From IMG/VR virus record IMGVR_UViG_3300025138_000335, positions 1 through 24,652 of that record: 24,652 nucleotides of DNA; one strand, 5' to 3'. The notes under the pieces are model-generated. The model worked only from the letters and a program-made list of their open reading frames with translations, ran no database searches and was not told where the DNA came from. Origin of the DNA: a virus. Positions within the stretch are counted from its first letter, which is position 1. Each line of letters starts with the position of its first letter. This document shows positions 3,815 through 21,488 of this stretch, piece by piece. The position numbers and the translations under genes were made by a program.

Positions 3815-3822
3815 TATTTATA
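3815..3822 (-). promoter_or_regulatory. T4-type late promoter box before the 136-aa gene
   Basis: The minus strand reads GTATTATAAATATA, containing a perfect TATAAATA. It lies between the stop of the 784-aa gene (3831) and the start of the 136-aa gene (3793), leaving a leader of about 15-20 bases that contains AGGAGACT. T4 late promoters have this single -10 box read by gp55 with gp33 and the clamp. Confidence 0.75.
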
Positions 3823-3830
3823 ATACTTTG

Positions 3831-6185
3831 TTAAGCCATTTTACCTTTGCCAACATCGATCTCCTTCTTAGGAGCCATCTTGACAACTTTTCTGCCTGTA
3901 GCAGGGTCGGTAGCTATAATTGTTTTTCTATCAGCTCTACGCTCGATAGCCTCTTGTTGAAATAAGCCCTTAGCAAAATCTTTCTGCTCGTTAGCTCTTC
4001 TCAATGCATCTTTAGCTTTAGGATGATCAGAAAGTCCTTTCTTAATCTTTTCCATCTTCTTAGCAGCACCAGTGTAATCTCCACCTACGTGTCTCTTATC
4101 GAATGCAATACCTTTAGCCATTCTGACTTCTTTATCAGTGTAGCCTTCTCCAAATGGTTTACTTCCAGCTTTTCTTATTTTAGAAGCGCCTCTACCAAAT
4201 CTTAGCATTTGGTTCTTGTGTTGCTTGTTTGCAGCTTTTTGATAGTCTGGGTCTCTTCTATCATAGTCAGCTTTGGATCCTGCCATTGAAACATTTACGT
4301 TTCTCTTGTCAGCAACCTTCTTAACTAACTCGTTAGAAATCTCTTGTACGTTCTCTTCTTTCTCAAATTTTGGATTCTGCTTACCTTTATAGTTTGGATT
4401 ACCTGGTATTGGTTTAACAGCATATTTGTCTTTCTTTATTGTTATTGTATTCTTTTTACTAGCTGGCTTGCCATCGTCGATATCTTTCAACGTCATCATT
4501 TTTTCACCAAGTTTACCTTTAGCCATTGCAACACCTTTTCTCATTTTTGCAAGGTTCTTATCTTTATCAACCTTTGCGCCAATGCTTAAGTGCATTTTTT
4601 CTTTGTCAGTGATCTTTCTGTTTGTTTTATCGATATAACTTAACTTAGTTGTATCTGATATCTCATTCATGGCGTCTTCACTCATGCCAGATTTGAATGC
4701 CTTGTGGCTATCGTGATGCTTATACATCCCTAGTTTCTGTGATGGCTTAGCAGCGTCATGCTTTGCTAACCAAGACTTGGCATGATCAGCAGATACTTTG
4801 TGAGTGGATCCATCTTTAAACTGTACACCTTTGTGGTTACCTTTAGTGTCTACAACACCTCTTAGCTGCCCAACGATGTGAGGAGTATCTGATATACCCT
4901 TCTTACCTTTTGGCTTTGGAGATGGCTTAGAATCTAAATGTGAGTCATCAGAAGTCTTATATCCACTAGAATCTCTCATAGCAGCTGATTTAGCTTTCTG
5001 TGCATTACCTTTCTTAGCTTGATGCATTTTAAATATCTTAGCAGCAGCATTCTTTCTCTCTAAAGGAGACATTGCTTCAGAAACCTTGTCTAGGTCTCCT
5101 CTGCCTTTGTATACGGACTTGGCTCTTTTCTTTAATGCATTTGTTCTAGCCAGTCTTTTCTTCTCTTCTGGGGACATATTTCTGTAACGTCTTCCAGTAG
5201 TAGTATCATCCCATCTTCCTGCTTCATCAAGGTCTGTATCCTCTTTACGATACTTAACTTTGATCTGTGAATCCCTCATACCATCTATTTCATGGTCTTT
5301 AACTCTTTCACCTGGCTTCATTCCACCATGTGCTTTCATTTTAGATCCAACTGAATGTACTTTATAAGAACCAGGCTGGCTCTTACTAGGTCTTAGAGTG
5401 ACTGACATTGCTTCTGCAAATACTGAGTACTCTGGTACTTGGAATCCTTCTTTGACGTCTTTAGCAGCTTTAGGCTTACCACATGACTCACAGATCTTCT
5501 TACCACAGTCACAATCACAGCTACACATATCTTCAGCTTCAGAAATCTTTGCACCCATAGGCTTAACAACTGGATTCTCTTTAGCTTTTACTTTAGTAGA
5601 TGGCTTCTTAGCTGACATCACCATACCATACTCATCTAATTGAGTATCTTCTTTAGCCATAGCTTTCTTGATAGCTTTTCTTTTCTTATGTAGGTACTTG
5701 TCTGATGTATCAACATCACCATCGTTATCAATATCTGCATCTGCTTTTCCAACAGGATCCATCTTGCCTTCTTTCTTCATTGCATTCTTGATAGCTTTAT
5801 CTCTAGAACCTAGATATTCAGCAGATTTTGTTTCTACTTTACCATCGTTGTCATGGTCTTTTTTAGCCATTTTTTCGTCTACAAGCTCTGGTTCAGAATC
5901 GTGTCCTTCTACCTTCAGACCTGTTGTGACGTTGTTATCTGGTTTGACCATCTCTCCGCCTTTCTTTGGAATACCATCTACTGATAAACCAAACTTAGTT
6001 TTTGAAGCGTGAGTTGGCTCGTGTGCTGGATCACCACTTGATTGTCCTGGGGTGTCTTTTGCATACTCGTTTCTAGCCTTAGGAGTGCCATACTCAAGTG
6101 ACGCAGTGTTTGCTACAGCTTCATTCAACTGTGGCTTGTGCATATCTCTGTACATTTGAGATATCGATCTAAAATCTTTTTTCAT
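3831..6185 (-). CDS. Large Lys-rich mosaic protein with EF-hand-like loops and a Cys cluster, probable virion component
   Basis: 784 aa, extremely rich in Lys with many Asp, Ser and Gly, largely low-complexity and helical. Two calcium-loop-like repeats occur at residues 110-121 (DHDNDGKVETKS) and 151-162 (DIDNDGDVDTSD), each followed by a basic helix ending KAIKNAM or KAIKKAM, as in dockerin/EF-hand motifs. Residues 221-235 hold six Cys (CSCDCDCGKKICESC), a likely metal site. Later segments (about 250-310 and 430-510) look folded. Position beside the 1084-aa gene and late promoters suggests an abundant virion or head-internal protein, but I recognise no enzymatic domain. The ribosome site AGAGGAAACT precedes ATG at 6185. 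Confidence 0.75.
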   Translation of the reverse strand: MKKDFRSISQMYRDMHKPQLNEAVANTASLEYGTPKARNEYAKDTPGQSSGDPAHEPTHASKTKFGLSVDGIPKKGGEMVKPDNNVTTGLKVEGHDSEPELVDEKMAKKDHDNDGKVETKSAEYLGSRDKAIKNAMKKEGKMDPVGKADADIDNDGDVDTSDKYLHKKRKAIKKAMAKEDTQLDEYGMVMSAKKPSTKVKAKENPVVKPMGAKISEAEDMCSCDCDCGKKICESCGKPKAAKDVKEGFQVPEYSVFAEAMSVTLRPSKSQPGSYKVHSVGSKMKAHGGMKPGERVKDHEIDGMRDSQIKVKYRKEDTDLDEAGRWDDTTTGRRYRNMSPEEKKRLARTNALKKRAKSVYKGRGDLDKVSEAMSPLERKNAAAKIFKMHQAKKGNAQKAKSAAMRDSSGYKTSDDSHLDSKPSPKPKGKKGISDTPHIVGQLRGVVDTKGNHKGVQFKDGSTHKVSADHAKSWLAKHDAAKPSQKLGMYKHHDSHKAFKSGMSEDAMNEISDTTKLSYIDKTNRKITDKEKMHLSIGAKVDKDKNLAKMRKGVAMAKGKLGEKMMTLKDIDDGKPASKKNTITIKKDKYAVKPIPGNPNYKGKQNPKFEKEENVQEISNELVKKVADKRNVNVSMAGSKADYDRRDPDYQKAANKQHKNQMLRFGRGASKIRKAGSKPFGEGYTDKEVRMAKGIAFDKRHVGGDYTGAAKKMEKIKKGLSDHPKAKDALRRANEQKDFAKGLFQQEAIERRADRKTIIATDPATGRKVVKMAPKKEIDVGKGKMA

Positions 6186-6197
6186 AGTTTCCTCTTG

Positions 6198-9100
6198 TTA
6201 GCAATTCCATCTTTTTCTGGCTGCTTTGCCTCTTTCTCCATCCCAGCTTCTTGACCTAGAGCAAAATGCTTTACGTCTTCCTGCTGCTTTACTTCCAGCC
6301 TTTAGCTTGGAAGGTGGAGTCGTGACTGCTGTTTTTAAAGTACTGCCTGGGTTACGTCTCTTGTAGGCTGCTACGCCTTTCTTTGTCATTCCAGCACCTG
6401 AATCAACAGATCGCTTATGACCAGACTTAACCGACATGCCCGACATATCTTCGTTTATATTTATACTTTCTAGTAAGTCCTCGAAGTGTGCATTAACTAA
6501 ATCAATGTCTTGCACCACGATAGTGTTTGACATATATTTAAACAACTCATCAACTGCCTGCAGTTCGTCTTTACTATTCTGTACATTTTGTCTTAACTTC
6601 ACAAATATCTGACCATCTGTAGTGACAATCCCAACTAACTTTTGAAGTAATTCGTATAGTTTACCTCTAAGTTTTGGATCCTTCAACGCATCAGGTCCTC
6701 TCTTCATAGCTCTTTTCATAAGTTCTAGCTCGCCTTTCTTAGCTAGACCCATTCTAAACAATTGTGTCATCTTAGAGACAGAATCTTTCTTTCCTTCTTC
6801 AATCTCTTTATTGTCGTGCTGCTTTACCTTACTTTTATCAGCCTTTCTACCTTTGACTACTTTGTCTCTTAAATCTTTACCGACTCTCTTTCTAAATGCT
6901 TCCCAACCTTGGTTGCCACCTTCTTTAACATCTTTCTTCTTAGTCTTGTGGATCTTATCGTGAGTGTCACCTTTCTGTTTCTTTTTCTTCTTTTTATCAG
7001 CTGCTGTCAAGTCAGTCTTTCTGTCTCTATCTTGGACGTATCTGACTTCAGCATTCTTAACCTTTCCTTTCATCTTAGATCTGTTGGCACTTCTATTGAT
7101 CTGCTTCTTAACAGCTTTAGATGTGATTTCTCTTTCAGGTGTACCTACAGCTCCAGCATCTGGCATGTATGCAGCACCGACAGCTTCAACAAACTGTTCA
7201 AATGCTTCATTTGTCTTTCTTTGCTTGAGACCTCTTTTAGTCATCAGCGCATCATAGTCAACTTTCTTACCTGACTGAACTTTATAATTCTTGATTGATG
7301 CGAACTTACTTCTATCTACTTTGATACCAGCTTTCTTTCTATCCATAGGCTTTGGAAATGTACCTGTCAAACCTAATCTAGCCATTGCATTCTCGTTTTG
7401 AGCTTTTTTCATCTCTGCTGGAGTAGGAGCATCTTTGTGTCCTTTAGGATTCATCTTCTCACCACGCTTTCTTTTAGCATGGATGTTTGCCCATAACCCT
7501 TTGCCTTCTTTAACTGATGGCTTATCGTGTCCGTAACCCATTTTCTTATATTTGATGTGGTCGGCTTCTGTTTCAGCTTTGTAGCCTTTGCCTGTCTTTG
7601 GATCATACATCATATGAGGTTCGAACTTATCTTCAGTGGATCCTCTTAACAACTCTCTTTTTCCAAATGACTTCAACGACTTGTAATCTTCTTGAGCTAG
7701 TTTATTAGCTGTAGCATACATGACCTGCTCACCTTTATCACCATATCTTTTAGTGAAGTCTGATGCTTTCTTCTTCATGCCCTTAACAATGTCTTCTGCT
7801 TTATCTTTCTGAGCTTGAGACATTTCCGCAACTAATCTGTTAACTGCAGCAAAGCCACCTTGCTGGGCAGTTTGTTTTCCATGAGGATTTTCATAACCTT
7901 CAATGTACTCTAAGAATAATGTGTCTGGATCTATGCTTGCTTTGATTGCTTTTGCATCGATAGCTTCAATAGCTTCGATCATCATGTCAACAGTCTCTGC
8001 TACAGTAAGTGCTTCACTTCTGATCTCTGCTGATTTCTGTTTTGATATTCGAATCTTAAGACGTTCTTTAGCTAAGTCTTGTCGCTTATCTAATGTCTTA
8101 TCTTGTTCTTTATGTTTGTCTGACTGGAGCTTTAACTTTTGCGCACTCTCGGCTTCGTCAAGTCCTGTTGAAGTGTTATCGATATATTCTTGGAACGACC
8201 ATCTATTGTTATCTTCGGAGGTCCCTTCATGGACCACGTCGGCGATGAAACGCTCGAAACTGTGATTGACTGATTCGTTTTTCTTTCCACGTGCTGCTGA
8301 TAGCCTCTTTAACTCTGCTGATTTAACTTTAGGTAATAACCTAATAGCAATTTTATTTATGATTGGCAGTTTCTTAGATACTCTTTTATCCAACTGAATT
8401 CTTTCTGAGGGTGATAGTTTTGAATAGTTAGCACCTTTTGCACCACCTAGTCTCTTTCTAATCAACGTTCTTGCTTGACGTCTGGCTCTACGTACTAACA
8501 TATCTTTAGTAGCCATACGTTTCTTCTTCATCTTTCTAGCACGTTGGATTCTAAACTTGAGCCTTCTCATTTTGATGCCAGCTTTTCGTCTTTGTAAGAG
8601 AGTCATAACTCTTTCGTTTACCAACTCTTCTTGTACGTAATCTTCGTCAATCATTTGCACAATAAGCTCATCGCTGAGAGTATCGAACCATTCTAATAAC
8701 TCAACATCCTCATATGCTTCTGTGATGTGAGATGATATCTCTTTGTGATGTTTGTGCAATGACTTTGGAAGTCCTGCTTTGAATGATTTGTGATCACCTG
8801 ACTTAGCATGAGCTCTCATCTTAGTACCTGAGATACCTGATGTGCCTTCTGAGTCTGGGTCTCTCTGACCTGCAGAGTGGACTGTGATAGATTTGAAATT
8901 GTAATGGTCTTTGTGGCCATTATATTTGTTTAGAACTTTCTTATATTCACCAGTCCTGTCGGATCCTGCAACAACATGAAGGTGATCATGACCTGCCTGA
9001 TGTAGCTTCTTAGCGTGATGTAAGAATGATGGACTCTCTTTGCTGGATCCAGTTACGTGTACCCCAGGATGGATCTTCTTAACATAGTTAATCTTATGCT

Positions 9101-9452
9101 TCTGAGGTAGTGGGTTGTTCTTTTTGTCGTGTGAATGCGAAAGCACAATGTGTGCTTTGGATCCATGTCTTTGAGCAACTTTGTGAGTTGCATGAATTAG
9201 TTTCTCATGACCAGTAGTTGGAGGATTCATCCTGCCGAAGGTCATCACACCATGTGATTCTTTTGCTTCTGGTTGGTACTCAGTCTTAGGACTGATATCT
9301 ACGATATCTTTGAGTTTCTTAGGTACTGGATTGAGTTTGATTTCACCTTTTTTGCCCTTTGCTTTCTTTAAGGGAGGTGGTGGAATGGCGATACCAGGAT
9401 TCCCTGTATCTCCGCCTGGTTTCCCAGTCATTCCTTGATCTGTAATTGGCAT
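6198..9452 (-). CDS. Giant Lys-rich mosaic protein: N-terminal nucleotidylyltransferase-like domain and conserved Arg/Lys-rich C-terminal domain
   Basis: 1084 aa. Residues about 65-245 resemble the cytidylyl/adenylyl-transferase fold: MTFGRMNPPTTGHEKLI with TTGH in the HxGH position (79-82), VAGSDR at 161-166, and SGTKMRAHAKSGD at 209-221 like the ISxTxIR signature. Residues about 285-390 are a highly basic helical region. Residues 560-582 (KRYGDKGEQVMYATANK) and 650-678 (GLWANIHAKRKRGEK) are short motifs I associate with marine-phage structural proteins. The last 60 residues (GVAAYKRRNPGSTLKTAV to KRWNC) match a small domain seen alone in other marine phages (DUF6321 from memory). A virion-associated mosaic is likely; enzymatic activity is unproven. 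The ribosome site is AAGGGAAA. Confidence 0.75.
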   Translation of the reverse strand: MPITDQGMTGKPGGDTGNPGIAIPPPPLKKAKGKKGEIKLNPVPKKLKDIVDISPKTEYQPEAKESHGVMTFGRMNPPTTGHEKLIHATHKVAQRHGSKAHIVLSHSHDKKNNPLPQKHKINYVKKIHPGVHVTGSSKESPSFLHHAKKLHQAGHDHLHVVAGSDRTGEYKKVLNKYNGHKDHYNFKSITVHSAGQRDPDSEGTSGISGTKMRAHAKSGDHKSFKAGLPKSLHKHHKEISSHITEAYEDVELLEWFDTLSDELIVQMIDEDYVQEELVNERVMTLLQRRKAGIKMRRLKFRIQRARKMKKKRMATKDMLVRRARRQARTLIRKRLGGAKGANYSKLSPSERIQLDKRVSKKLPIINKIAIRLLPKVKSAELKRLSAARGKKNESVNHSFERFIADVVHEGTSEDNNRWSFQEYIDNTSTGLDEAESAQKLKLQSDKHKEQDKTLDKRQDLAKERLKIRISKQKSAEIRSEALTVAETVDMMIEAIEAIDAKAIKASIDPDTLFLEYIEGYENPHGKQTAQQGGFAAVNRLVAEMSQAQKDKAEDIVKGMKKKASDFTKRYGDKGEQVMYATANKLAQEDYKSLKSFGKRELLRGSTEDKFEPHMMYDPKTGKGYKAETEADHIKYKKMGYGHDKPSVKEGKGLWANIHAKRKRGEKMNPKGHKDAPTPAEMKKAQNENAMARLGLTGTFPKPMDRKKAGIKVDRSKFASIKNYKVQSGKKVDYDALMTKRGLKQRKTNEAFEQFVEAVGAAYMPDAGAVGTPEREITSKAVKKQINRSANRSKMKGKVKNAEVRYVQDRDRKTDLTAADKKKKKKQKGDTHDKIHKTKKKDVKEGGNQGWEAFRKRVGKDLRDKVVKGRKADKSKVKQHDNKEIEEGKKDSVSKMTQLFRMGLAKKGELELMKRAMKRGPDALKDPKLRGKLYELLQKLVGIVTTDGQIFVKLRQNVQNSKDELQAVDELFKYMSNTIVVQDIDLVNAHFEDLLESININEDMSGMSVKSGHKRSVDSGAGMTKKGVAAYKRRNPGSTLKTAVTTPPSKLKAGSKAAGRRKAFCSRSRSWDGERGKAARKRWNC
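6458..6465 (-). promoter_or_regulatory. Late-promoter-like box inside the 3' end of the 1084-aa gene
   Basis: The minus strand has AGTATAAATATAAAC, a perfect TATAAATA, in codons for about residues 996-998. It could start a transcript about 270 bases before the 784-aa gene, which otherwise has no late box of its own. The match may also be a chance product of Ile/Asn codons. Confidence 0.4.
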
Positions 9453-9537: not shown

Positions 9538-10743
9538 TTAACTTCTGGTATCAGATTCCCACCCTTTAATTACGTCTTTACTAAAGTTTGCGTAAGAAAA
9601 GTCTAATCTATCTACAAGTTTTACAGCTGAAGTACCTTTCTGATCGATAGCAACATAACCTTCTTGGCCTGTTACCTTCCAACCATCAGTAGTCTTTAGC
9701 ATAGTTTTCATAAAAGCAGCACTGTCTAATTTCTTTACTAATAAATTCTTAGCTTCTTGCAAATCATAATATAGATTGAAGACAGCTAACAGAGTCGATT
9801 GAGGTATTGCTCTCAATGGATCCCTGATCTCTCTAAATTTTCCAAACACAGCAGCCTTACCTTTGTCAGTCTTTCTCTTATCCATCTCTTTATCAAACTT
9901 AGCTTTGATGTAAGGCATAAAGTTAGCAGCAGCTTCACGTCTCGTTGGAGTAGTGTTTGCTCTGATGAATGAGTTAGTATATGCTGTCGCATGTATTGAT
10001 ATAGATGGGTGATTGATAACATCGAATACTTTCTTTGGTATCTTTCTAAAATTGCTTCCAGCCTGTGTTAATATTTTTGACAGCTTAGCTGTCTCTGTTT
10101 TTGTTAGTGTGGCAGATCCAGACACATCTCGGTACATAGCATCTACTTGCCATACACTTGAGTGAGCCTTAGGCATCTTTACACCAAAGTAGTTAGTTAA
10201 GCTATCTAACTTTCTGCCTTTGTATGTTGTATGCCATACAATACCCATCTTAGCTGAAGATATACTCTTAGCTAGACTGCTCTCAGCAGGTACAGTATAT
10301 ACGATTGTGTTAGGATGAAATGTAATAAACTTCTTGTTGTCGATAGTTACACTTTTAACATCATCACTATCAAAAAGGAAGTCTCCTTGTATGATACAAT
10401 CAAGACCTGAGTCTTTGAAACCATTGAACGCTAGCTTAAACTTTTTCTTGAGCTCTGGTCCTAGGTCTTTAGTATCGTTTATATCTTTGATAGATGTATA
10501 GTATAGTGGTGTCTTATTGAATAGTGATTTCTTAGCAACAAAGAACTCTTTTGTCTCTGGATGTCTTCCTAAGAAGATAGCTGGAGCACCATCCCATTTG
10601 ACAGACGTGTCTAATGGACGTGCAGAGTCACCATTGAGTGTATCTCTCATGCCAGTCAAGAACTCGATTGATTGTCGTGTTCCATTGACGCCCAAAAGGA
10701 AGAGTGCATCTTCCAAGTGAGTCATGTGTGTATTCAAAGCCAT
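9538..10743 (-). CDS. Conserved phage protein with ligase/nucleotidyltransferase-like motifs (DUF6267-like)
   Basis: 401 aa. The N-terminus (THLEDALFLLGVNGTRQSI) and SVKWDGAPAIFLGRHP are features of a family widespread in T4-like marine phages, DUF6267 from memory. KWDG at residues 49-52 fits motif I (KxDG) of the DNA/RNA ligase and capping-enzyme superfamily, where the Lys takes the nucleotide. IIQGDFLF (117-124) sits where motif III would be, KMGIVWHT (165-172) resembles a weak motif IV, and AVKLVDRLDF (373-382) could be motif V. Motif IV lacks the usual EG, so activity is uncertain. The start ATG at 10743 lies only 4 bases after a TATAAATA box, so the mRNA might be leaderless. Confidence 0.75.
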   Translation of the reverse strand: MALNTHMTHLEDALFLLGVNGTRQSIEFLTGMRDTLNGDSARPLDTSVKWDGAPAIFLGRHPETKEFFVAKKSLFNKTPLYYTSIKDINDTKDLGPELKKKFKLAFNGFKDSGLDCIIQGDFLFDSDDVKSVTIDNKKFITFHPNTIVYTVPAESSLAKSISSAKMGIVWHTTYKGRKLDSLTNYFGVKMPKAHSSVWQVDAMYRDVSGSATLTKTETAKLSKILTQAGSNFRKIPKKVFDVINHPSISIHATAYTNSFIRANTTPTRREAAANFMPYIKAKFDKEMDKRKTDKGKAAVFGKFREIRDPLRAIPQSTLLAVFNLYYDLQEAKNLLVKKLDSAAFMKTMLKTTDGWKVTGQEGYVAIDQKGTSAVKLVDRLDFSYANFSKDVIKGWESDTRS

Positions 10744-12621: not shown

Positions 12622-13098
12622 CTATTTATAGAAAATGTGGTTATCAATCGTTACGACATGCTTAAGGTGATCCGCCCAATAAGGATATACTGAGTCATTA
12701 TGATAGTGTGTGGCACCTTCTGTAAAGTCATACATTCCATACAGAACCTTATCTGCTATTAACAGACACTCTTCCCATGTCTTACTGTCTTCTGGTAGAT
12801 CTGGCTTACCATCACAATACCAGCTGAACTGACACATATGTTTGACTGGCCATACTTTACCTTTCCAATTAGTGAATGTTGGGCCTTGTCTTATAACGCT
12901 CTCTGTGTCGTCAGGATATTGCCACGAATCAACTCTGTTCATAGTTACAAGTCCAACAGCAAGTCTACCTGCTTCGGATTGATTACCAGCTTCAAAGTAT
13001 ATGTTGAGTGCTAACCAGTATCTCTCATCGTTTGGATCAGATGCAGTTATATCTGAATTGATTGTAATTAGTGCTAAAAATAATATAAATTTTTTCAT
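12622..13098 (-). CDS. Secreted SleB-type cell wall hydrolase
   Basis: 158 aa from the ATG at 13098, chosen because GGGGAATTAC provides a ribosome site and the product begins with a signal peptide (MKKFILFLALITINSDITA); a longer frame reaching 13176 has no such support. The domain matches the Hydrolase_2/SleB family: ALNIYFEAGNQSEAGRLAVG with the likely catalytic Glu36, VTMNRV, and MCQFSWYCDGKP, whose QFS and paired Cys are typical. SleB enzymes cleave peptidoglycan as lytic transglycosylases. A signal peptide lets this one reach the periplasm without a holin. A sigma70-like promoter precedes it, so early or middle expression is possible. The last codons (Tyr-Lys-stop) coincide with a late-promoter box for the next gene. 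Confidence 0.85.
   Translation of the reverse strand: MKKFILFLALITINSDITASDPNDERYWLALNIYFEAGNQSEAGRLAVGLVTMNRVDSWQYPDDTESVIRQGPTFTNWKGKVWPVKHMCQFSWYCDGKPDLPEDSKTWEECLLIADKVLYGMYDFTEGATHYHNDSVYPYWADHLKHVVTIDNHIFYK
12623..12630 (-). promoter_or_regulatory. Late promoter box embedded in the stop region of the SleB gene
   Basis: The minus strand reads TTCTATAAATAG: codons Phe-Tyr-Lys-stop contain a perfect TATAAATA. It lies 34 bases before the ATG of the 476-aa gene at 12589, a normal late leader containing TGGAG. Confidence 0.7.
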
Positions 13099-13125: not shown

Positions 13126-13154
13126 ATTATAAATAATTTTGTGTTTAAAGTCAA
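13126..13154 (-). promoter_or_regulatory. Strong sigma70-type promoter before the SleB gene
   Basis: The minus strand has TTGACT (13154-13149), a 17-base spacer and TATAAT (13131-13126), one mismatch from the bacterial consensus. The predicted start near 13119 gives a leader of about 20 bases with GGGGAATTAC before ATG at 13098. It lies just past the terminator at 13179-13203, so the gene can be read independently of the RNA unit upstream. Confidence 0.8.
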
Positions 13155-13178: not shown

Positions 13179-13203
13179 AAAAAAAACCTGCATTTCTGCA
13201 GGT
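13179..13203 (-). terminator. Rho-independent terminator with GAAA loop
   Basis: On the minus strand ACCTGCA-GAAA-TGCAGGT forms a perfect 7-bp stem with a GNRA tetraloop, followed directly by a run of eight T (counting the last stem base). It closes the small RNA unit and would also stop read-through from gene 41. Confidence 0.85.
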
Positions 13204-13348
13204 CTAAAAATCAAGCACTATAAAGTATTCTTGGAAAGGACGAACCCCACGTTTATTCCTTTCAATTCCGTATGGCAGTTTATAACTGCTCACTTGCCAC
13301 TAAACTCAGTCCCCACTGCGTCTAACAAGAATAGCATCCCGAAGAATG
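13179..13348 (-). ncRNA. Candidate independent small RNA (about 170 nt) with late promoter and intrinsic terminator
   Basis: The 281-base gap between the gp41 and SleB genes holds what looks like a complete transcription unit. A TATAAATA box at 13354-13361 predicts a 5' end near 13348. Four hairpins follow on the minus strand: a 5' hairpin of 6 bp (one G-U) closed by C(UUCG)G at 13334-13349; GCAGTT-ATA-AACTGC at 13275-13289; a 7-bp stem GAAAGGA/TCCTTTC with a 16-base loop at 13234-13263; and the terminator. GUGGGG occurs twice in predicted single-stranded parts (13311-13316 and 13245-13250). No convincing coding frame is present. It does not fold as a tRNA, and I do not recognise an RNA family. 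Confidence 0.6.
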
Positions 13349-13353
13349 CGTAG

Positions 13354-13361
13354 TATTTATA
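13354..13361 (-). promoter_or_regulatory. Late promoter box for the small RNA unit
   Basis: A perfect TATAAATA on the minus strand, lying in a palindrome (TAGTAT-TATAA-ATACTA, 13351-13367). The same geometry, GGTAT-TATAA-ATACC, surrounds the hsp20 late box. No open reading frame with a ribosome site follows, so it appears to serve the RNA. Confidence 0.7.
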
Positions 13362-13379: not shown

Positions 13380-14750
13380 TCAAGTGAAGTCTTTAAAAAC
13401 ATCTTTTAGAGACTTCTCATCACTCGAGCCGAACTTGCCCTTATCAAATATTGGAGTGTCATCTACTATATCTGATTGGGCTGCCTGCTCAACATCATAA
13501 AGGCGCATCTTAGATTTATCTACACCTATTACAAATCTTCTGTGGAAAGCTGGATCCGAATATCTATTCTTCAACTGCTTAACCATAAACTGATCTAATG
13601 CTTCGAGTTCTTCTGTCTGCTGGATTGCCAGCATAAAATCAGCTGTTGCCGGTAGACCGAAGCTCTCCGACGTATCTTCCAAACCAATGTCAGAGCTTGA
13701 GTAACCCGATCTATTGGTCTGCGTAGCGCTAATGATTGGCACGTTGAGTTCCACAGCCAATCCTCGTAACTCTTCTGCAATCGCTTTGACAATCGTGTAA
13801 CTGCCTGCATTCATTCCTCCCTTCAACCTTGACGACGAACATATATTAAGATAATCAATATATACTACATCTGGTTTGAAGTTCTTCTTTGTTGTTAATT
13901 CTTGTACTAAATGTCTAAGATGGTTAGCATTAGCTGTTGCGGTAGGATACTCTTTGATAATCAACTTACCTATTGTCTTCTCTTTGAGTCTGTCCATCTT
14001 CTTGTTGTATGACTCCTTAGGAAGTATTGAGAGGTCTTCTAATGTTACATCTAACAGGTTAGCATCAATCCTTTCTGCAATCCTTTCCTCTGCCATCTCC
14101 ATCGTTACATACAGTACATTCTTGCCTTCTACCATGTTGGCTGCTGCACAATGACACATAAACAATGACTTACCTACACCTGTTCCTGCCATTATAATAT
14201 TGAGTGTCTTATTTGGTATGCCGCCTTTAGTGATCTTATTCATAAGTTCTAAGTCAAAAGGAACACGAGTCTCTTTCTTGTGGTAGAAGTCATATCGTTC
14301 TTCTGCATCTTCTATGAAGTCATGACCTACACTATTATCGAACGACACCTGCAATGCTTCCTGTAGCAATGTAGGCAACTGTCCTTTCTCGTCTGGCTTG
14401 TTCTCTAGTATGTTTATACCGTTCATGATAGCATTATAGATAGCTTTATCCTGACAGAACTTCTCTGTCTCATCTAATAGCCATTGCTCATTGATCGGTT
14501 CAACTTCTACGTTCAGAAGTTGCAATGCGTTATCAATCGTGCTTTGATCAACATTGTTGACCTCGTTTAGTTCTATAGATATGACCTGTGGTTGAGGTAC
14601 ACTATTATACTTCTGAAAGTATTCCATTGATAACTTATACAATAGTTTATGTTGGGGAGTAGAAAAGAACTCCTCTTTGACAAACGGTAATACCTGTCTA
14701 GTATACTCTTCATCTGTTATGAGACCTGTAATAATTTTGTTTTCTATCAT
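13380..14750 (-). CDS. 41: Replicative DNA helicase gp41 (DnaB family)
   Basis: 456 aa, near T4 gp41 (475 aa). A helical N-terminal domain (1-150) leads to a RecA-like motor: Walker A GTGVGKS (189-195), the MEMAEERIAERID helix (217-229) carrying the catalytic-Glu region, Walker B VVYIDYLNI (295-303), and SATQTNRSG (341-349) with the sensor Gln and Arg region typical of DnaB helicases. It works as a ring hexamer unwinding DNA 5' to 3' on the lagging strand, with the primase, which is not in this window. The start overlaps the stop of the 2OG oxygenase gene by 4 bases (ATGA). Confidence 0.93.
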   Translation of the reverse strand: MIENKIITGLITDEEYTRQVLPFVKEEFFSTPQHKLLYKLSMEYFQKYNSVPQPQVISIELNEVNNVDQSTIDNALQLLNVEVEPINEQWLLDETEKFCQDKAIYNAIMNGINILENKPDEKGQLPTLLQEALQVSFDNSVGHDFIEDAEERYDFYHKKETRVPFDLELMNKITKGGIPNKTLNIIMAGTGVGKSLFMCHCAAANMVEGKNVLYVTMEMAEERIAERIDANLLDVTLEDLSILPKESYNKKMDRLKEKTIGKLIIKEYPTATANANHLRHLVQELTTKKNFKPDVVYIDYLNICSSSRLKGGMNAGSYTIVKAIAEELRGLAVELNVPIISATQTNRSGYSSSDIGLEDTSESFGLPATADFMLAIQQTEELEALDQFMVKQLKNRYSDPAFHRRFVIGVDKSKMRLYDVEQAAQSDIVDDTPIFDKGKFGSSDEKSLKDVFKDFT

Positions 14751-20712: not shown

Positions 20713-20931
20713 TTAATCCTGTAAAAATTCTTTATCTTGTTCTAATTTAAGGGCAGTGCTGAGTTTTTCCTCTGCAGATGCCAATTGATTAATTAGTCCA
20801 TCTAATGTAGCTACTACATCTGGATGATCAGCAACACCATTTGTATTGCTTAATAGGTTTTGAATATTAGCTCTTGCTACCATAACATCGCCATTATATC
20901 TTGCGACTAGCGCACTTACTAAGTTAGACAT
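20713..20931 (-). CDS. Small helical protein of unknown function (72 aa)
   Basis: 72 aa, with no recognised family. It appears wholly helical and acidic, with an N-terminal VSALVARYNGDVMVARANIQNLL segment and a heptad-like C-terminal helix (INQLASAEEKLSTALKLEQ). The ATG overlaps the end of the lysozyme gene by 8 bases and is served by GGAGAGATTAG inside it. Its stop is 3 bases before the nucleotidyltransferase ATG. The tight packing supports a real, coupled gene. Confidence 0.7.
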   Translation of the reverse strand: MSNLVSALVARYNGDVMVARANIQNLLSNTNGVADHPDVVATLDGLINQLASAEEKLSTALKLEQDKEFLQD

Positions 20932-21364
20932 TTTCTAATCTCTCCATAAGCCTTTCAGCTCTATTTGTAACTTGACGATACCACTTGCTGTCTCTTCCTT
21001 CTACAGCTGCTTCTTTCCAATCACCAGATTGAATAGCTGCAACATGCTTTCTGAAACCAGTGAGACGTGTACGTCCCATGTTAAACATCATGTTAGCTAC
21101 TACTTGCTTGACATCCTCAGGATATCCATCCCATGCAGGGTGTAGTATTTTACAATCATCAATAACGATTTGAACATCCTTTTCGAATAATTCTACACAT
21201 CTTTCTTCTGTGATTGGCGTGCCAAGAGGCGATCCACTTTCTTCATCAGAATCAAGGATAAGATGGCCGATGCCAACAGTAGGCAGACCAAGATGGTCAT
21301 GATACACTTCAAGTACCTTTCCCTCGTCGATTGTTAATTGTTCTCTTAATTTATTAAGATCCAT
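20924..21364 (-). CDS. T4-type lysozyme (GH24 endolysin)
   Basis: 146 aa from ATG at 21364, which follows AGGAGACTCAT. The catalytic triad of T4 lysozyme is kept with identical spacing: Glu14 in IDEGK, Asp23 in YHDHLG and Thr29 in PTVGIGH (T4: Glu11, Asp20, Thr26). The C-terminal lobe is recognisable from VANMMFNMGRTRLTGF and SKWYRQVTNRAERL. It cleaves the MurNAc-GlcNAc bond of peptidoglycan. It has no signal peptide, so a holin or other route is needed. Two promoters sit in the leader, a late box at 21388 and a sigma70 type at 21489-21517. An in-frame GTG at 21484 would add 40 residues but lies at the predicted transcript start and lacks a ribosome site. Confidence 0.93.
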   Translation of the reverse strand: MDLNKLREQLTIDEGKVLEVYHDHLGLPTVGIGHLILDSDEESGSPLGTPITEERCVELFEKDVQIVIDDCKILHPAWDGYPEDVKQVVANMMFNMGRTRLTGFRKHVAAIQSGDWKEAAVEGRDSKWYRQVTNRAERLMERLENV

Positions 21365-21387
21365 ATGAGTCTCCTGTAATGTAGACT

Positions 21388-21395
21388 TATTTATA
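21388..21395 (-). promoter_or_regulatory. T4-type late promoter box for lysozyme
   Basis: A perfect TATAAATA on the minus strand, 23 bases before the lysozyme ATG at 21364, giving a short late leader with AGGAGACT. Confidence 0.75.
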
Positions 21396-21488
21396 AAAGT
21401 GAAAGAACATGCCAGCTTGACCGATCGCAATTTGCGAATTAAATGTCCAATTTGGATGCTACAATGCACAGCATGTCCTCTCACACAT

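Follow-up and report, generated by a model that had tools for sequence, protein, structure and literature searches.

The locus beside gp41

The window, by which we mean the whole 24,652-nucleotide stretch of viral DNA analysed here (IMG/VR record IMGVR_UViG_3300025138_000335), encodes on its minus strand gp41, a DnaB-like replicative helicase (13380..14750; phrog_19, 5e-128), and a SleB-like cell wall hydrolase (12622..13098; PF07486, 2.5e-21). The gap between these two genes, at 13361-13179 on the same strand, contains first a late promoter box, then a structured RNA about 165 nt long, and last an intrinsic terminator. gp41 is the constant neighbour of this RNA gene and the hydrolase gene is the next one downstream. 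An initial annotation had proposed that the gap holds a complete transcription unit for a small RNA, the best candidate there for something undescribed, and conservation, strong covariation and the lack of a conserved peptide frame bear this proposal out.

The perfect late box that the annotation reported is present: a T4-type box, TATAAATA, occupies 13354..13361 on the minus strand, with transcription expected to start about 5-6 nt past the box, near 13349-13348. So is the 7-bp, GAAA-loop terminator (ACCUGCA-GAAA-UGCAGGU followed by a U run, 13179..13203, minus strand). Past this terminator, on the 3' side of the RNA, a sigma-70-like promoter for the hydrolase gene can be placed at 13154-13126 (minus strand; a promoter-like site matching 11 of 12 positions). 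Exact copies of TATAAATA number nine in the window where shuffling leads us to expect 2.2. Elsewhere on the minus strand they stand at 3815, 6458, 9524, 10748, 12623, 21388 and 22009, and the single plus-strand copy (13128-13135) would drive antisense transcription across the RNA unit toward gp41.

Other parts of the window also deserve mention. A Phage_lysozyme protein (20924-21484) joins the SleB-like hydrolase (12622-13098) as the second of two cell-wall enzymes, and one late box (21388-21395) falls inside the long GTG-started frame of its gene. A DUF6267 protein (9538-10743; PF19782) contains the sequence KWDGAP, reminiscent of the KxDG motif found in nucleic-acid ligases and nucleotidyltransferases; a similar protein in another locus (L286) seems to be joined to a cytidylyltransferase-like part. 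At 3831-9452 two lysine-rich proteins of great length (784 and 1084 aa) are encoded in tandem, the longer of them without a Pfam match.

Homologs, transcription signals and noncoding status

The search for homologs began from gp41. Three IMG/VR contigs whose gp41 is 83-84% identical to that of the window have, in the corresponding gap, an RNA with about 80% identity, and a covariance model built from the window and these three contigs (R1) located more distant copies downstream of gp41, in several cases after one small ORF. Homologs from gp41 neighbourhoods, extended by pattern scans and by two further models (R2 and R3), make up a set of 73 sequences; a number of other candidates (L083, L085, L104, L107, L108, L110, L113, L115 and L117) were rejected as chance pattern matches, mostly within genes. 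Because retrieval by pattern biases such a set, so that conservation of GGCAAG, GGAA and GTGGGGTTC is inflated in part of it, we also assembled an unbiased sample of 137 gp41 neighbourhoods chosen without motif patterns and scanned them with R3. The RNA was found in 37 of these 137 loci, keeping in mind that the contigs partly overlap and that some loci are truncated. Nine of the sequences had not been part of the set and were retrieved by no motif pattern; each of them retains the late box, both the GGCA and GGAA segments and the GGGGUU loop. IMG/VR contigs thus contain at least 82 distinct homologous sequences (the 73 plus these nine), with one copy per record in records that were searched whole.

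Transcription signals accompany the RNA across the set. A NNTAAATA late box lies upstream of all 73 copies, the exact TATAAATA upstream of 59 (null mean 1.1, maximum 5), and 67 are followed by a strong terminator at the place equivalent to that in the window (null 2.3, maximum 8). Since the homologs keep the whole unit, it stands far above chance. In T4 late promoters an 8-bp TATA box with a tightly kept consensus precedes the start by about one helical turn (PMC2988020), and the RNA gene has just such a box at the right spacing: the end of the box precedes P1, the outermost helix of the fold described below, by a median of 10 nt. Taken together with T4 late promoter geometry, this spacing implies that the transcript should begin at or just before P1, and the product would be a compact RNA. 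We infer that the gene is transcribed late in infection, presumably by a phage-modified RNA polymerase of the gp55/gp33/gp45 type.

What kind of product does the unit specify? ARAGORN calls no tRNA or tmRNA gene in the window. A search of Rfam 15 with the window and 21 homolog loci gave nothing at gathering threshold except ordinary tRNAs elsewhere in one locus (L223), and a permissive Rfam 15 scan of the window stretch and nine of the 21 loci returned chance-level matches only. The annotation had likewise recognised no tRNA, tmRNA or known phage RNA here. It had also suggested an Rfam check and a covariance analysis in relatives; the first finds no family at gathering threshold for the window stretch, and the second yields the strong covariation set out below. 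Equally, it had seen no coding frame with a ribosome site. A 70-aa open frame does span the gap on the plus strand, and one might imagine that the locus encodes a small peptide or, on the antisense strand, a conserved protein. However, sense frames are short (the longest has a median length of 24 aa among the homologs) with none conserved, the spacing of conserved blocks is not in multiples of three, and variation tracks base pairing rather than codons, which leaves a peptide or antisense protein scarcely credible. A promoter and terminator of its own, covariation, no conserved frame and a position independent of any operon are what one looks for in a free-standing structured noncoding RNA gene, and the unit shows all of these features. 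Judged on comparative sequence evidence, the unit is almost certainly a noncoding RNA gene of T4-like phages.

The conserved fold and its covariation

The predicted family fold comprises a closing helix (P1), a hairpin P2 that may be extended by P3, the hairpin P4 and a P5/P5b arm capped by UGGGGUU; the GGCA and GGAA joints are conserved. In the window, where all elements lie on the minus strand, P1 pairs the 8 nt of UAUUCUUG (13326..13333) with CAAGAAUA (13226..13233) in a covarying 8-bp helix that encloses three arms. The first, within 13300..13325 and derived from covariation and alignment folding, consists of P2 (13325-13320 with 13305-13300) and P3 (13318-13315 with 13310-13307), the latter with a GGGG loop at 13314-13311. 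The homolog alignment then gives a conserved GGCAAG joint (13293..13298), reduced to GGCA in the most divergent homologs, ahead of P4 (GCAGUU-AUA-AACUGC, 13275..13289), whose stem positions covary and whose length varies between homologs. It likewise gives a conserved GGAA joint (13266..13269), followed by NNG, before the third arm. This arm, within 13234..13263, is formed by P5 (13263-13258 with 13239-13234) and P5b (13252-13250 with 13242-13240), both supported by pairing and RNAalifold, and P5b carries the heptaloop UGGGGUU (13249-13243). In the family fold P5 is followed by an optional extra hairpin and then by P5b closed over UGGGGUU. Where the initial annotation had described two more hairpins between a 5' cap and the terminator, there is instead a closed domain, with P1 drawn around three arms.

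The cap itself fares differently in the window and in the family. A 6-bp hairpin with a C(UUCG)G loop (P0, GCAUUC-UUCG-GGAUGC, 13334..13349, minus strand) does sit at the expected 5' end, as the annotation had it, but P0 is confined to close relatives of the window, with differing stem and loop sequences; the region forms other stems in L002, L003 and L098 and no clear one in L001, and most homologs are without any. The C(UUCG)G cap being unconserved, the argument from a stable cap plus a terminator is not what convinces. Both GUGGGG copies that had been noted as unpaired do fall in loops, yet only the copy in the P5b loop (within UGGGGUU) is conserved. The UGGGG loop of P2/P3 is typical of the window subgroup; other homologs carry a different hairpin there, and P3 is missing in L074.

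Covariation on alignment A5 scores 0.667 compared to 0.182 when shuffled, with shifted registers reaching at most 0.159. As A5 was fitted to a model, the test was repeated on a MAFFT alignment not fitted to structure (A2), where the score is 0.633 versus 0.185 and RNAalifold recovers P3, P5 and P5b unaided; the gp41-sampled set, in an alignment itself fitted to R3 (A6), scores 0.723 versus 0.234. At the level of individual helices, P1 shows changes on both sides at 8/8 pairs in A5, with 84% of cells paired, and a helix score of 18.1 with its own partner versus 13.3 (maximum 14.0) with partners swapped. P5 is paired in 96% of cases, versus 66% when shuffled and clearly less in other registers, and the three Watson-Crick pairs of P5b are found in 73/73 sequences (shuffled partners: 62%, maximum 68%). 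We also looked for a pseudoknot and for additional helices linking the conserved segments; outside P1, P2, P4, P5 and P5b, no covarying pairs stood out. An alternative pairing of GGAA with a UUCC in the loop is disfavoured: in copies with UUG the GGAA is retained while both strands of P5b change. Folding energy for the window stretch is -51.7 kcal/mol as opposed to -40.4 for shuffles (z -2.9; 0/200 shuffles as good). Across single homologs energy folding is weak (mean z -0.7; P5b in the MFE structure of only 14/73), so that the case for the fold is made by covariation.

Distribution, candidate roles and relation to known phage RNAs

gp41 lies within about 2 kb of the RNA in 70/73 loci. In 46 loci it is upstream on the same strand, in 24 it is downstream and faces the RNA, and the remaining three have no gp41 within the DNA examined. 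In many carriers (L050, L058, L065, L076, L074 and others) gp41 and the RNA are separated by a small ORF of about 56-73 aa, which the window lacks. On the gp41 tree, where leaf labels miss some carriers, carriers occur across several clades with carrier-free clades between them; L322, L323, L243, L247, L242, L274, L220, L306, L255, L292, L302 and L088 do carry the RNA. Neither many related gp41 loci nor 20 annotated T4-like phage records (including T4, Melnitz, HTVC008M, S-RIM8 and a KVP40-type phage), part of which were scanned with stricter filters, gave a significant match to the RNA model, so the RNA is not essential to all such phages. Weak R3 matches in P-TIM68, S-SM2 and DSL-LC03 (E 0.05-0.9) were taken as chance, as was the best model score (18.7 bits, E 0.015) in GTDB genomes, where a pattern scan gave 77 matches, about the estimated chance number. 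A blastn search of the window and concatenated homologs against 50,697 phage records returned only terminator-like or chance matches.

One conventional reading would make the RNA a cis-acting leader, a riboswitch or attenuator of the next gene, which in the window is the SleB-like hydrolase. The terminator directly after the folded domain and the same-strand orientation of that gene fit such a reading. However, a leader has to be followed directly, on its own strand, by the gene that it regulates. In the 24 loci where the RNA faces gp41 the genes between or downstream read oppositely (L074 is one of these opposed copies and has both a late box and a terminator of its own), downstream genes vary by locus, and in the window the hydrolase gene has its own promoter-like site past the terminator. 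Strand flips and differing downstream genes speak against a leader role so directly that we regard it as very improbable. A gene that flips strand and often faces gp41 looks free-standing, and its product very probably acts in trans.

How might it do so? A base-pairing sRNA would use the G-rich UGGGGUU (and the GUGGGG of P3) to pair with C-rich segments of mRNAs from phage or host, regulating them late in infection. The UGGGGUU loop is invariant and predicted to be unpaired, and a late promoter plus terminator would suit an sRNA gene. Seed-type sRNAs, though, are as a rule weakly structured with a long single-stranded part, while here it is the structure that is conserved and only a short part is unpaired; moreover, complementary words are unenriched in the sense strand of the window (CCCC 10 versus 12 expected, AACCCC 1 versus 1.5). 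We consider base pairing unlikely. Catalysis or ligand binding, whether by a ribozyme or by a free-standing aptamer soaking up a metabolite, seems less likely again: a multi-helix junction closed by P1 with conserved joints is a layout known from riboswitches and ribozymes, but no Rfam 15 family of either kind matches, no cleavage-site logic is visible, and opposed copies have no downstream gene to switch. Recognition by a protein is favoured because letter-level conservation is found at the joints and in a single closed loop, within an overall shape that covariation keeps, and as a mode of action we give it an even chance against base pairing and catalysis. A phage or host protein would then recognise the folded RNA in the course of assembly or lysis, the RNA serving as scaffold, cofactor or decoy. 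Overall, a free-standing, trans-acting late RNA with protein recognition as its leading candidate mode is the best explanation we can offer, and one we lean towards slightly.

A phage-encoded structured RNA is, as a kind, known; the fold, the late promoter and the fixed site beside gp41 are new to the resources we searched, and no prior description of the RNA was found in open-access papers. T4 RNAs C and D (rnaC, rnaD) are also short, stable noncoding RNAs of a T4-type phage with unsettled function, but they lie in the T4 tRNA cluster, far from gp41, have no late box ahead of them in the region read, and rnaC has a tRNA-like GGGTTCGAATCCC arm. Homology with either was rejected: besides this arm of rnaC, R2 matches nothing in L196 and R3 matches nothing anywhere in the T4 record. 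The pRNA of phi29 is a phage-encoded structured RNA that acts in trans via a protein complex; the present RNA shares the first property and probably trans action, but has no Rfam match and no loop-loop complementarity that we could find, and T4-type packaging motors are not known to require an RNA. GOLLD and ROOL are large structured RNAs, often phage-linked. Like the RNA described here they are free-standing, conserved by covariation and of unsettled function, but at several hundred nt rather than about 165 nt they have another layout, and their Rfam models do not match. Their structures have been described (PMC12286853). Finally, the marine T4-like phage Melnitz carries a structured RNA element in the form of a glutamine riboswitch with a tmRNA (PMC9004378). 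That element, however, is a member of the known glnA family of RNAs, is linked to a tmRNA gene and is placed by the authors after an early promoter (PMC9004378); neither R2 nor R3 matches the Melnitz record.

Virulent T4-type phages have few well-supported noncoding RNA genes. The one described here recurs in many phage contigs from the environment, has a late promoter of its own and is fixed beside the replication helicase. Its absence from Rfam and from the cultured phages examined is why it was overlooked. A covariance model is now ready for annotation, and the RNA is compact and would be experimentally tractable given a cultured carrier. The strand flips, in ruling out the usual cis-regulatory reading, point to a trans-acting late RNA function. 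Possibly, at somewhat less than even odds in our estimate, this is a new class of phage RNA across deeply diverged uncultured T4-like phages, three-armed and with a UGGGGUU loop, which would serve as a late component of a phage or hijacked host ribonucleoprotein in a function that no known phage RNA family has.
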